Shown here: positions 3,586 to 33,031 of the stretch, one piece after another
Position numbering within the stretch: the stretch's first letter is position 1
How the letters are laid out: the number at the start of each line of letters is the position of its first letter
Assembly (NCBI GenBank): GCA_017629215.1
Contig: JAGBXP010000010.1
Coordinates: 1-36,022 of the forward strand
Length of the DNA stretch: 36,022 bases
Origin: a bacterium
GTDB lineage: Bacteria > Cyanobacteriota > Vampirovibrionia > Gastranaerophilales > Gastranaerophilaceae
Direction: 5' to 3'
Program-made: the position numbers and the translations under genes
The notes under the pieces: generated by a model
What the model was told of the DNA's origin: nothing
The model's input: only the letters and a program-made list of their open reading frames with translations
The model's database searches: none

Positions 3586-3741
3586 TTACTTCACAGCTTG
3601 CAATTTGACTTGTACACCTGTTTCAGTGTTTACAGTAATTGCATTAGATATCGCCATCGCTCTGCGTTTTTTGGCTCCTCTTAATATAAATTCAACACCG
3701 CTAAATGTATTGTTTGACGGAGTAGTTATCTTCTTTAACAT
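3586..3741 (-). CDS. Small basic protein, 51 residues, unknown function
   Basis: Too short for most gene callers but fully equipped. It has an AAAGGA Shine-Dalgarno eight bases before the ATG, a plausible promoter (TTGAAA, 16 bases, TATTAC) and a strong terminator. The protein begins MLKKITTPSNNTFSGVEF, continues with a basic patch (RGAKKRRAMAISNA) and ends QVKLQAVK. No signal peptide or long hydrophobic stretch is visible, so it is probably cytoplasmic or nucleic-acid associated, but I do not recognise it. A perfect HLR1-type element lies about 85 bases upstream of the start. The reading-frame evidence is modest because of the length; the signals around it make it convincing. Confidence 0.7.
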   Translation of the reverse strand: MLKKITTPSNNTFSGVEFILRGAKKRRAMAISNAITVNTETGVQVKLQAVK

Positions 3742-3771: not shown

Positions 3772-3799
3772 GTAATAAATATATCGGCATATTTTTCAA
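3772..3799 (-). promoter_or_regulatory. Promoter of the 51-residue gene
   Basis: Minus strand: TTGAAA (3794-3799), 16-base spacer, TATTAC (3772-3777). Predicted start near 3765. The HLR1 element at 3825-3842 would then centre near -68, where an activator can act. Confidence 0.5.
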
Positions 3800-3824
3800 A
3801 AACTTTAGGATTTTTGTGAATATA

Positions 3825-3842
3825 TTTACAAAAATTTACATA
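3825..3842 (+). promoter_or_regulatory. HLR1-type element (RpaB-like response regulator site)
   Basis: TTTACAAAAATTTACATA matches every defined position of the cyanobacterial HLR1 consensus, (G/T)TTACA(A/T)(A/T)NN(G/T)TTACA(A/T)(A/T). The two half-sites are ten bases apart. HLR1 is the binding site of RpaB, an OmpR-family regulator conserved in Cyanobacteria; use of the same site here is inferred. Confidence 0.6.
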
Positions 3843-3856
3843 AGCATTTAGAATAA

Positions 3857-4036
3857 GTAGTAAAAATTTTTACTCCATTTCATATTGCTTGTATGACGAC
3901 TTCTACTGCGCTATTAGGATTACTTCTTAAAAAGACACCAAATGTATTTATTAAAGATATGAAAGGTAACAGAGGCGTAAATTTCTTAAGAACAGACGAA
4001 ATGAAAAAGATTTATGAAAGTTATTTAAAAATGTAA
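3857..4036 (+). pseudogene. Short open frame, possible remnant of a larger gene
   Basis: From an ATG at 3893 a frame of 47 residues runs to TAA at 4034-4036 (start MTTSTALLGLLLKK, end MKKIYESYLKM). The same frame is open back to 3857 without another ATG and reads protein-like (TPFHIACMTTSTALLG). There is no Shine-Dalgarno and no clear promoter, so it looks like the surviving 3' end of a lost gene rather than an active one. A short leaderless gene cannot be excluded. The stretch from 4037 to 4229 beyond it holds nothing I can support. Confidence 0.3.
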
Positions 4037-6098: not shown

Positions 6099-7416
6099 AG
6101 AAAAAAAGAGAAAAGTTAGAATTATAGCTAAAAAAAATCCTTTACAAATTCTTAAAGGTTATTTGAGGACATTCTTTTTTTCATTTATTATCGGTAGCAT
6201 AATTACAATTGGTTTTGTAATACAAGCAAGAAATAAAACTCTTGATGATATTTATGCATATAATCAAAGACAATCGTCAATAGATAAATCAGTGGCTCAA
6301 GAGCTTGTAAAATCTTCGAATTTATTAAGCGATTTGAATAGAAAAAAATACTCTGTTTGTATGTATGTTGGTGAAATTTATGAAGCTATTGGGAATTATC
6401 AAAACGCACAAGAAGCTTATCAACTTGCAATTGAAAAAGCTAAGGTTAAAAATTACGCACCTTATTTTAAACTGATCAAGGTCTTAGTTGCGCAAGAGAA
6501 GTTTTTAGAAGCAAATTCAATCTTAGATAGTATTAAAGATAAGACAGATAAGGATTTGATTAAATTTAAAACAAATTCTTATATCATAATTGGTGATAAA
6601 TATTATTCAAATGCTAAGTTTTTATCTGCAGTAAAATGTTATGAAAAAGCTGGTTTTTATTATAATAAGTTTGCAAAAAAAGATTTAAAGATTGATAATT
6701 CTATAAAAGAGCGAATTGTAAATTCTTATATTCAAACAGCAGATATTTTGGTTAAATCAGGTTTAAATTCTGAAGCGATTAAATTTTTAAAAAGAGCTGA
6801 AAAATATGCTCCAGATGATTATAACGTTAAGTACAAGCTTGCTATTATTTTTTCAGATTTAGATCCTGAACTTTCAGTAGATTATTTTGAAGAATTATTA
6901 GATAAAATTCCTCAAAAAATTGATTATGAAATATACAATACGGCACTTATGAAATCTGCTAATATTGCAGACTTAGACAATAGGCCTACAAGAGCTAAAT
7001 ATTATAGATATAAAATTCGTTCTATAGATATGTTTATTAATAGAAAAGTTGTTTATAAAAATGATATTGAATGCTTTGTAAAATCTTTTAAGTTAGAAAA
7101 AATAAGATTTCATTATCCTTTAAAAATAACTTATGCCTTCTTTAATGTGTCAAATTCAGATATTATTAACCTAAAAGCAGATTTTATTCTTCGCCATAAT
7201 GAAAAGCCTATAGAAACGCTTACTATTGATATTGCAAATAAAAACAAACCTTTGTTTATAGCAGCAGATAATCCAAATTTGGTTGATGTTTGTTTTAAGA
7301 AAAAAATATTTTCTAAAAAAGATTTAGAAGAATATACAATTGAAATATATATTTACAAAGATTTAAAATACAAAACTTTTGTAAGTAATTCACCTTTACC
7401 TATTAACATATATTAA
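6091..7416 (+). CDS. Membrane-anchored TPR-repeat protein, unknown function
   Basis: 441 residues. A strongly basic N-terminus (MIKEKKRKVRIIAKK) precedes one membrane helix at about residues 27-46, predicting a short cytoplasmic tail and a large exported domain. Helical repeats of the TPR kind follow (for example GEIYEAIGNYQNAQEAYQLAIEKAK and GDKYYSNAKFLSAVKCYEKAG) up to about residue 310. The last 110 residues look beta-rich. TPR proteins of this layout usually act as scaffolds in envelope processes. It is translationally coupled to the MgtC-like gene (eight-base overlap). I do not recognise a named family. No good terminator follows on its own strand; the hairpin just after the stop is oriented for the opposite strand. 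Confidence 0.75.
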   Translation: MIKEKKRKVRIIAKKNPLQILKGYLRTFFFSFIIGSIITIGFVIQARNKTLDDIYAYNQRQSSIDKSVAQELVKSSNLLSDLNRKKYSVCMYVGEIYEAIGNYQNAQEAYQLAIEKAKVKNYAPYFKLIKVLVAQEKFLEANSILDSIKDKTDKDLIKFKTNSYIIIGDKYYSNAKFLSAVKCYEKAGFYYNKFAKKDLKIDNSIKERIVNSYIQTADILVKSGLNSEAIKFLKRAEKYAPDDYNVKYKLAIIFSDLDPELSVDYFEELLDKIPQKIDYEIYNTALMKSANIADLDNRPTRAKYYRYKIRSIDMFINRKVVYKNDIECFVKSFKLEKIRFHYPLKITYAFFNVSNSDIINLKADFILRHNEKPIETLTIDIANKNKPLFIAADNPNLVDVCFKKKIFSKKDLEEYTIEIYIYKDLKYKTFVSNSPLPINIY

Positions 7417-7503: not shown

Positions 7504-7532
7504 ATCTTACATATATATAAAGTATATAACAA
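7504..7532 (-). promoter_or_regulatory. Promoter of the candidate small RNA
   Basis: Minus strand: TTGTTA (7527-7532), 17-base spacer ending in TG, TAAGAT (7504-7509). Predicted start at about 7498. The -10 box lies inside ACATCTTACA (7502-7511), a ten-base sequence also present in the S24 repressor operator. Confidence 0.55.
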
Positions 7533-7561
7533 TTTAAAAATTTCACTTTCGGTCTGATATT

Positions 7562-7579
7562 GTTACAAATCTTTACATG
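7562..7579 (+). promoter_or_regulatory. HLR1-type element upstream of the 481-residue gene
   Basis: GTTACAAATCTTTACATG fits the HLR1 consensus at all defined positions but the last (G instead of A/T). The TATA-rich stretch at 7617-7624 is the likely -10 of the downstream gene and lacks a good -35, so a site centred near -58 could be an activator site. Confidence 0.5.
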
Positions 7580-7654
7580 AGTAAAAAAAAGTCAATTTAT
7601 AACGATGAAAATACTTTATATATATAGGTAGGTTTTCAGTAGGATTTTTTTAAT

Positions 7655-9100
7655 ATGACTTTGTATCCAAATACAAATACAACATTATTAGTAAATTCAA
7701 GATTTGCAGGAAATACAAATCCTGCAATAAACGCTCCGTTGGTAAAACCTATTGAGACAGTTTCAAAAACAGTTGAGAATGCTGTAGATATTTTTATTCC
7801 AAGTGAAGAGAAAAATAAGAAATCAAATAAAAGGGCTATTTGGGCAGGTTCAAGTGCGCTTGTAGTTACAGCTCTTGTTGCGCTTTTAAATCCGAAGTTT
7901 TCTTCTAAGTTGATTGCAAGATGTAAAAAAGCTTCGCAATCAGCAGGTAAGAAATTTCAAGATAGCAAGGATAACTATTTAAAAAGTAAATTCCATCAAA
8001 CATCACAAAAAGTTTTTGATTGGAGTGTTAAATCTCTGGAATTTACTAACAATTTTAATTCAGCAAAGGATTTATGGTTTAAGAGATTATGCTGTAGTAA
8101 TAAGAGGTTTAGCAAGGTAAAAAATGATTCAGTTAGATCTTTCTTGCAAAAAGTTGATAAAGGTTTTGTCGGCGTTATGTCAAAATTCCATAAAGGAGTT
8201 TCTAGTTGGTTTGATAGTTTAGGTAAAAAAACTGTTTTATCAAAACATAATAAAGCTTCAAGACAAATGAATCATTATGAAAATCTGTTACTTGAATATA
8301 GATGTCGTCTTTCTGATGCAGAAAAAAAAGAATTTGATAATATATTAAGTCAAATTAGGGATAAAAGAGAAGTTTTCTCGAAATCTAATACTTTAGAGCG
8401 TTTAAAAATTCAGGAAGACAAGATGAGTGATCTTGACAAGGAATTTATTAAAAAGGTTAAAAATTATAAAGATGGGTATAGAAAAAAAGATCCTCATAAC
8501 AAAGAACATTTTAAAGATAATTTGTCATTCTGGGCTGAAGAAATTATGTTGCCAGAAAGAAAGAAGCTTGAGATGGAAGGTAAGAAGGTTGTAGAAGAGC
8601 TTGTTGGTAATTCAGAGGGTAAAAAAGGCTTATATGACGAAGCGTATTCTTTAATAAGTAAAAAATTAAATGATTCTGAGAAGAGTTTATTAGAGAATAC
8701 TTTAAAATCTACTAATAAAAAGTTAAATCGAGCTAATACTTGTGAAACAGTTGAATATTTTGACAAGAAACGTGATTTAGTTTTAGGTAGCGCACCAACT
8801 GATATAGTAACAGCAGTTGGAGGTATTGGTTTGAGTGGAGTAGCTATTGCTACTGCTGATAATAAAGAAGACAGAATTTCCAAATTGCTAACAGGTGGTC
8901 TCCCAATTATAACAGGTATTGGAGCGTCTTTAGCATTTACAGCGATGCTTTTCTCTGGCATAAAAGGTATGTTATATGGTGCAGGTGCTTCTATTGCATT
9001 GAGTAAATTTGGTAGTGCAATAAATAAACATATTTTTAATAAGGATATAGATGCTGAAGAAGAGTTTTCAAATATAACTGAACAAAAAAGAACAGCTTGA
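7655..9100 (+). CDS. Large membrane-associated protein, unknown function
   Basis: 481 residues, not recognised. The N-terminus is polar and Asn/Thr-rich (MTLYPNTNTTLLVNSRFAGN). One membrane helix follows at about 61-78 (AIWAGSSALVVTALVALL). Then comes a long Lys/Glu-rich helical region (about 85-375) likely to form coiled coils. The C-terminal segment is hydrophobic and glycine-rich (about 383-401 and 413-452, with GGLPIITGIGASLAFTAMLF), resembling paired membrane hairpins. No cleavable signal peptide is seen. AGGA lies ten bases before the ATG. An HLR1-type site lies 76 bases upstream. It ends eight bases from the convergent kinase gene. The short N-terminal SRFAGN is reminiscent of the NFKAI-type motifs in the genes at 31.3-32.5 kb, a weak similarity. 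Confidence 0.75.
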   Translation: MTLYPNTNTTLLVNSRFAGNTNPAINAPLVKPIETVSKTVENAVDIFIPSEEKNKKSNKRAIWAGSSALVVTALVALLNPKFSSKLIARCKKASQSAGKKFQDSKDNYLKSKFHQTSQKVFDWSVKSLEFTNNFNSAKDLWFKRLCCSNKRFSKVKNDSVRSFLQKVDKGFVGVMSKFHKGVSSWFDSLGKKTVLSKHNKASRQMNHYENLLLEYRCRLSDAEKKEFDNILSQIRDKREVFSKSNTLERLKIQEDKMSDLDKEFIKKVKNYKDGYRKKDPHNKEHFKDNLSFWAEEIMLPERKKLEMEGKKVVEELVGNSEGKKGLYDEAYSLISKKLNDSEKSLLENTLKSTNKKLNRANTCETVEYFDKKRDLVLGSAPTDIVTAVGGIGLSGVAIATADNKEDRISKLLTGGLPIITGIGASLAFTAMLFSGIKGMLYGAGASIALSKFGSAINKHIFNKDIDAEEEFSNITEQKRTA

Positions 9101-31885: not shown

Positions 31886-32455
31886 TTATTTGCGATTAAT
31901 GATGTCATTTACGGCATTTTTAAATTCGATATTTTCTTTCTGTTCTTTTTGCTTAATAATTTCTTTTCTATGTTTTTCTTGAGATTTTTTTATTTTTTTT
32001 GCGTTTTTATTTTCTATATATTTTTGAATACTATTATCTTTCTCTTTAACGAAATAGCTAAGAGTTCCTTCTTCTTCGCTTATTCTATGAATAAGCTCAC
32101 TAGTGCTCTCTTTTAGTGCTGTTTCTTGTTCAAATGCGTTTGAAATTCCAAGTGTTGTAATTCTGTCTTTTTGTCCATTGAATAAGCTGAAAAGCCCCTT
32201 TTTAGTTGGGTTTTTGAATAAGATGCTGATTTGACTACAAATTATATTTGAGGCTTCTTTGTATGCGTCGAAAATTATATTTACATCATATTTATTGCAA
32301 AAATCCATTACAGTTTTGTTTTTGTGCAGAGATTTTATTAAATTCATTCTGTGTGAGTGGTTTGTTTTGTATAAACCATAGCATTTAATTCCTTTAATAG
32401 CTTTGAAATTTGTACTGTTAGCTACCGGATTGACGGTATTGTTTCTAATTTGCAT
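31886..32455 (-). CDS. Unknown protein with N-terminal NFKAI motif
   Basis: 189 residues, first of two tandem paralogues. The start MQIRNNTVNPVANSTNFKAI is a short disordered lead ending in the NFKAI-type motif. A mixed alpha/beta domain (about 20-125) and a strongly charged helical tail (KKIKKSQEKHRKEIIKQKEQ) follow. I recall many gut Melainabacterial proteins starting with such a lead, but its role (sorting, docking or chance) is not known. AAGGAG precedes the ATG. A TATAAA box lies at 32470-32475 on the minus strand, and a perfect HLR1-type element lies at 32535-32552. Confidence 0.65.
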   Translation of the reverse strand: MQIRNNTVNPVANSTNFKAIKGIKCYGLYKTNHSHRMNLIKSLHKNKTVMDFCNKYDVNIIFDAYKEASNIICSQISILFKNPTKKGLFSLFNGQKDRITTLGISNAFEQETALKESTSELIHRISEEEGTLSYFVKEKDNSIQKYIENKNAKKIKKSQEKHRKEIIKQKEQKENIEFKNAVNDIINRK

Positions 32456-32534: not shown

Positions 32535-32552
32535 TTTGTAAATTTTTGTAAA
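32535..32552 (-). promoter_or_regulatory. HLR1-type element between the paralogue operon and rpsJ
   Basis: On the minus strand TTTACAAAAATTTACAAA matches all defined HLR1 positions with ten-base spacing. Another single unit, TTTACAAA, lies nearby in the opposite orientation (32517-32524). The site centre is about 70 bases upstream of the rpsJ start point and about 80 upstream of that of the paralogue operon, so either could be the target. Confidence 0.6.
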
Positions 32553-32578: not shown

Positions 32579-32607
32579 TTGACTCTTATTTATGTTTGTT
32601 TTACTAT
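32579..32607 (+). promoter_or_regulatory. Promoter of rpsJ
   Basis: TTGACT (32579-32584), 17-base spacer, TACTAT (32602-32607). Predicted start near 32614, giving a leader of about 100 bases. Confidence 0.65.
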
Positions 32608-32713: not shown

Positions 32714-33031
32714 ATGACAACAGCTAAAAGACAAAGAATTAGAGTTTGTTTAAGATCTTACGAACACAAATTAGTTGACGTATCAGCTGAAAAAATCGTA
32801 GAAACTGCAAAAAGAACAGACGCTAAAGTTGCTGGTCCTATTCCTTTACCAACAAAAAGACGTATTTATTGTGTATTACGTTCACCTCACGTTGATAAAA
32901 AATCTCGTGAACACTTTGAGATCAGAACTCATAAACGTATTATCGATATTTACGAACCTACTCAACAAACAACTGAAGAATTGAGTAGATTAGACTTACC
33001 TGCTGGTGTTGATATTGAAGTTAAGTTATAA
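32714..33031 (+). CDS. rpsJ: Ribosomal protein S10
   Basis: 105 residues. S10 is in the 30S head and also works with NusB in transcription antitermination. The segments [39 protein letters not shown] and the ending [13 protein letters not shown] are very close to those of cyanobacterial S10. It has its own promoter and leader and is separated by 229 bases from rplC, which has another promoter. In Cyanobacteria rpsJ normally lies behind the tuf gene, away from the L3 operon. Here it lies directly before that operon but as a separate unit, and the gene upstream is unrelated and on the other strand. Confidence 0.97.

Follow-up and report, generated by a model that had tools for sequence, protein, structure and literature searches.

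The window, the whole 36,022-nucleotide stretch of DNA analysed here, is contig 4 of a 1.80-Mb Gastranaerophilales genome in 54 contigs (G000). At positions 3825-3842, the original prediction placed a perfect copy of HLR1, the RpaB site of Cyanobacteria, whose 18-bp consensus is KTTACAWW-N2-KTTACAWW (PMC13421787, PMC11633204). The match is exact: TTTACAAAAATTTACATA on the plus strand agrees with the consensus at 16 of 16 defined positions. The features of this locus are as follows.

3825..3842, minus strand with respect to its promoter: perfect HLR1, TTTACAAAAATTTACATA on the plus strand, acting as TATGTAAATTTTTGTAAA on the minus strand
3785..3807, minus strand: sigma-28 (FliA-type) promoter core, TAAAGTTT-N11-GCCG, coordinates checked
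3586..3741, minus strand: 51-aa gene starting MLKKITTPSNNTFSGVEFILRG, 83 nt past HLR1; ribosome-binding site AAAGGA

HLR1 lies upstream of the sigma-28 core with a gap of 17 nt. Because the motif was first read on one strand and this arrangement uses the other, the site is assigned to the 51-aa gene on the minus strand. A 47-aa open reading frame at 3893 on the plus strand was rejected as the target because the promoter points the opposite way. The 51-aa product has no Pfam match in a profile search. Its 51-aa orthologue in a genome of a different genus (G171, L380:1643-1798) is 65% identical, is preceded by HLR1, a 17-nt gap and TAAAGTTT-N11-GCCGA in the same arrangement as in the window, and adjoins a different gene. 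Because promoter and gene have both been kept despite the different neighbourhood, they move as a pair and the tiny gene is genuine. Thus, the predicted tiny gene beside the site exists and is conserved in another genus, but it is encoded on the strand opposite to the motif reading.

A second perfect HLR1 lies at 32535-32552, where the consensus is read on the minus strand, and both perfect sites are intergenic. In 100 dinucleotide shuffles of the window, the mean number of perfect sites was 0.02 and two were never obtained, in agreement with the earlier estimate that well under one would be expected. One-mismatch sites are found at 7352, 7562, 13580 and 25449. The original prediction counted two perfect matches and one near-perfect match, all of them intergenic; this holds for the perfect sites but not for the near-perfect ones, of which there are four, those at 7562 and 25449 being intergenic and that at 7352 lying inside the 6091-7416 gene. 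The surroundings of two of these sites are as follows.

32535..32552, plus strand: second perfect HLR1, written TTTACAAAAATTTACAAA on the minus strand, upstream of rpsJ on the plus strand
32579..32607, plus strand: sigma-70-like promoter TTGACT-N17-TACTAT for rpsJ, 26 nt downstream of HLR1, read from the sequence
32714..33031, plus strand: rpsJ, ribosomal protein S10 (Pfam PF00338, 126 bits), heading a run of ribosomal-protein genes
7562..7579, plus strand: HLR1 with one mismatch, GTTACAAATCTTTACATG, flanked by divergent promoter cores of a second type
7516..7544, minus strand: second-type core GAAAT...ACTTTAT, exactly 17 nt from the HLR1 at 7562 in the usual orientation
7592..7619, plus strand: second-type core TCAAT...ACTTTAT, facing the 7655-9100 gene, with HLR1 12 nt upstream in reverse orientation
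7655..9100, plus strand: uncharacterised 481-aa gene from the list of open reading frames, downstream of the 7562 site

With a promoter core on either side, the 7562 site is the functional-looking one among the one-mismatch sites of the window.

The whole genome contains 66 perfect HLR1 sites, whereas the reversed pattern gives none. In the stretches examined, 65 of the 66 lie outside open reading frames of at least 100 aa, which occupy 82% of the bases (p about 1e-46). Intergenic enrichment over controls, set beforehand as one of two points on which the prediction could fail, is therefore clear. The spacing of the repeat is specific as well. When TTACAWW-N(0-14)-TTACAWW was scanned over periods 7-21, period 10 accounted for 55 of 100 among the matches listed and every other period for at most 9; this specificity is taken from the whole-genome listing, a spacing table from stretches mostly chosen for HLR1 being biased. 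A period-11 spacing showed no enrichment in initial scans, and the 18-bp consensus was used instead. Enrichment is seen in each of the 11 genomes sampled from the genus, with 32-66 perfect sites against 0-5 in controls, and other genera of the same family are also enriched, with 6-71. Counting perfect matches only, the sister family f2 has 0-1 sites, the deeper families f3, f5 and f12 have 0-3, and photosynthetic cyanobacterial families mostly have 1-27.

Three OmpR-type response regulators are encoded in G000. One of them (L031) matches the RpaB equivalog model NF045944 over its full length with 356.5 bits against a cut-off of 330, and the other two score 205. Its identity to cyanobacterial RpaB is about 70%, and it carries the recognition helix DTRVVDVHISRLR(A/S)KLE, which is identical in the cyanobacterial protein and different in the other two OmpR regulators. 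The RpaB orthologue with a conserved DNA-contact helix that was to be looked for is thus present. Among genome records, the relatives with a name are Candidatus Gastranaerophilales MAGs, and its best matches outside the phylum reach 46% identity or less. In a maximum-likelihood tree, all RpaB proteins of the phylum group together (100/99), and a cyanobacterial clade (100/99) stands beside a clade of Gastranaerophilales, Vampirovibrionales and Obscuribacterales (96/78). Such a topology looks like vertical inheritance within the phylum. The families f2, f3, f5 and f12 also have RpaB, with the same recognition helix where read; because they have so few perfect sites, the helix alone does not predict heavy use of HLR1.

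Where cyanobacterial RpaB has Cys59, all Gastranaerophilales alignment rows read have Thr (GYGVTREIRR), and the Cys is kept in the cyanobacterial, sister-family and deeper-family rows; Cys59 is not counted as a defining trait of the RpaB family. Any thiol input to the Gastranaerophilales protein would therefore differ. In Synechocystis, direct redox sensing by Cys59 has been excluded (PMC13421787). The best match of the candidate kinase (L163) is NblS (NF045911), with 335 bits against an equivalog cut-off of 1000 and WalK close behind at 310, and from these scores it is graded as NblS/WalK-like only. WalRK (YycFG) of Bacillota consists of a related OmpR regulator and a PAS-HisKA kinase, and its models are among the high-ranking NCBIfam matches for the G000 proteins. 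WalR likewise binds a direct repeat. However, the G000 regulator scores higher with the RpaB model (356 bits) than with the YycF model (221 bits), and the tree groups it with cyanobacterial RpaB.

Direct repeats of about 10-11 bp are the binding sites of many OmpR-family regulators. The sites could thus be genuine activator sites bound by another regulator, either one of the other two OmpR-family regulators or an unrelated protein, with the likeness to HLR1 arising by convergence; G000 does have two further OmpR regulators, and HLR1 lies directly behind the gene of one of them (L033). Such a convergence would have to account for agreement at 16 of 16 defined positions in 66 places, and the recognition helix occurs only in the RpaB orthologue, the other two regulators sharing about 29% identity with it over the DNA-binding half. 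Binding by another regulator is therefore rather unlikely, and RpaB is the favoured candidate.

When HLR1 is read as WWTGTAAM-NN-WWTGTAAM, promoter cores follow at fixed distances. In type A, the sigma-28 core TAAAGTTT-N11-GCCG starts 17 nt after HLR1 in 10 of 10 cases. In type B, the second type, G(C/A)AAT or TCAAT is followed by ACTTTAT 21 nt on, and the gap from HLR1 is 16-18 nt in 16 of 17. Type D, about 100 bp long, is a unit in which TATAAT stands 29-30 nt past HLR1 and a second core, of sigma-28 type, 80-86 nt past HLR1. The remaining sites have sigma-70-like or further cores. The sigma-28 core TAAAGTTT-N11-GCCG occurs 29 times in the genome and never in the reversed control. When such cores were located independently of HLR1 and then tested for HLR1 with up to 3 mismatches, 11 of the 28 testable cores had it exactly 17 nt away (shuffle mean 0.04), and about a dozen more belong to type D. 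The corresponding fraction for second-type cores, 17 of 27, is biased upward because the stretches were mostly chosen for HLR1, and the four imperfect sites are fairer evidence. G000 also encodes a FliA_WhiG-family sigma factor (221 bits against a cut-off of 189.6), and so has both the core TAAAGTTT-N11-GCCGATAA and a FliA-family sigma factor, as sigma-28 promoters require. The composite of HLR1 and TAAAG has 12-22 occurrences in each genome of the genus and none in the controls there, 19-24 in the genus g15 and 0-8 in the remainder of the family; the few cyanobacterial matches are mostly a third TGTAAAG repeat and not a sigma-28 core. Two flagellin promoters from two genera (L041, L337) have an additional core of approximately GTTA(C/T)TA...GGAATATATA after HLR1, which may belong to a SigB/SigF-like sigma factor (L068).

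From the geometry of the cores, HLR1 would lie at about -69 to -52 in G000 promoters. This position matches that of activating sites in the cyanobacterial regulon, upstream of the promoter at about -66 to -45 (PMC13421787). The constant distance between the motif and the -35 element would also suit a fixed part of the promoter, such as an UP-like element or a sigma recognition site, that needs no regulator. However, the motif is found unchanged before promoters whose cores differ, and it is an exact HLR1 in a genome with a genuine RpaB orthologue, so that a fixed promoter part is a very unlikely explanation.

The unit of about 100 bp, which consists of HLR1, TATAAT, (GATAT)n pentamers and a sigma-28 core, has at least about 14 copies among the matches listed; it is found at L040-L056 (e.g. 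L047, L049, L056), often before short proteins starting MKFFDLEL. Similar units of HLR1, TATAAT and pentamers with different bases occur in other genera (G081 L133, G049 L156). The identical sequence TTTACAAATCGTTACAAT at at least about fourteen sites among the matches listed, with about 100 bp of common flank at those examined, raises the idea that the sites were carried along by a mobile or amplified repeat, without any part in regulation. However, the repeated unit is itself a promoter arrangement, with TATAAT and then a sigma-28 core, and other sites, including those in the window, share nothing in their flanks except promoter motifs. Single-copy flanks at most sites and conservation between orthologues make such passive spread highly improbable.

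The genes downstream of HLR1 in G000 include two flagellin genes, rpsJ, rpoB, atpB (L014), the gene of AdoMet decarboxylase, a sigma-70-family gene (L067) and many genes of uncharacterised proteins. HLR1 also precedes each of two LuxR-type DNA-binding proteins of 70 aa that are 90% identical to each other (L016, L054), and a more distant LuxR-type protein is found near HLR1 in G081. Several targets are kept in other genomes, namely rpoB in G171 and G201, flagellin in G171 and rpsJ in G201, where HLR1 is likewise upstream of the gene. In most matched cross-genome cases, a type A promoter stays type A and a type B promoter stays type B. The atpB site was not found to be conserved in the genome stretches examined. 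A family of proteins starting with MG(M/L)SASQAR is common to four genomes behind HLR1. More loosely defined as MG(M/L)(S/A)(A/S)(S/A)QAR, it occurs near HLR1 in several genera (L057:12378-13850, L061:3385-4515, L035, L058, L137, L146, L151, L160); its members have predicted long terminal helices and no Pfam match. When the family was checked for likeness to flagellin, the AlphaFold model had a pLDDT of 64 and the best PDB match an E value of 0.49. A short motif resembling (N/S/T)F(K/R/A)G or a variant thereof, such as SFKG, is seen at the N terminus of many uncharacterised proteins, for example those encoded at 31886-32455 (minus strand) and 7655-9100 (plus strand) of the window and at L024, L019 and L035. 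This motif is possibly a sorting signal.

A G+C content of about 31% in the G000 stretches examined would favour chance repeats of AT-rich DNA, but chance is refuted with near certainty by the shuffles (0.02 against 2 in the window), the reversed control (0 against 66), the intergenic placement, the fixed phasing and the cross-genus conservation.

The 3825 site is thus, with good confidence, a functional HLR1, one of about 66 that would be bound by the RpaB orthologue to activate a promoter 16-18 nt further on. RpaB, probably phosphorylated by the NblS/WalK-like kinase, would occupy HLR1 (roughly -69 to -52) as a tandem dimer and help RNA polymerase at the promoter that starts 16-18 nt beyond it. 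At 3825, this promoter would be of the sigma-28 type, used by FliA, and would drive the minus-strand gene of 51 aa. At other loci, HLR1 would serve second-type and sigma-70-like promoters, including those of the flagellins, rpsJ, rpoB, atpB and the sigma-factor gene.

RpaB is usually regarded as a regulator of photosynthesis. The G000 system shares with the NblS (Hik33)-RpaB system of photosynthetic Cyanobacteria the same 18-bp site, an orthologous regulator and an identical recognition helix, and both systems have ATP synthase (atpB in G000) and a sigma-factor gene (L067 in G000) among their target themes. However, the target sets are almost entirely different. Photosynthesis genes are absent among the identified targets of G000, which are flagellins, rpsJ, rpoB and many uncharacterised proteins, and unlike in the cyanobacterial regulon, a large share of its HLR1 sites is phased to sigma-28 cores. 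Homologues of rpaA, rpaB and nblS in Melainabacteria have been published (Di Rienzi 2013, PMC3787301; Soo 2014, PMC4040986), and Di Rienzi 2013 (PMC3787301) already proposed that the regulator preceded the use of light. Both papers only reported the genes and left their function open, and HLR1 is absent from the text of Di Rienzi. No published report of HLR1 sites or of an HLR1 regulon in Melainabacteria or Vampirovibrionia was found in papers joining RpaB with either name. What is new here is therefore the HLR1 sites, the regulon and the promoter anatomy of Gastranaerophilales, the homologues and the pre-light idea having been published before.

The original prediction held that the regulator either predates photosynthesis or was given a new job in this lineage, and this is supported. 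Because the regulator and the site are shared and the tree looks vertical, the RpaB-HLR1 pair is placed in the common ancestor, and on sequence evidence the simplest reading is that it is older than the split between Gastranaerophilales and photosynthetic Cyanobacteria. The few perfect sites in sister lineages with the same helix are a reservation about such an ancestral pair. Whether the common ancestor was non-photosynthetic is debated and is a separate matter. Dozens of sites and a matching regulator without photosynthesis suggest that the switch was probably there before it took on a role in the response to light. It is possible, although somewhat doubtful, that RpaB-HLR1 predates oxygenic photosynthesis and first ran genes for growth and motility (those of the ribosome, RNA polymerase, ATP synthase, a sigma factor and the flagellum), that its light role was recruited later, and that it is a global activator linked to sigma-28 in Gastranaerophilales. 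An exact RpaB site at the activating position in a non-photosynthetic lineage makes a role before photosynthesis testable by comparison of target genes. For uncultured gut bacteria, the sites also amount to a first regulatory map at genome scale, in which transcription is predicted to start about 52 nt beyond HLR1 and uncharacterised but conserved proteins are picked out for study.
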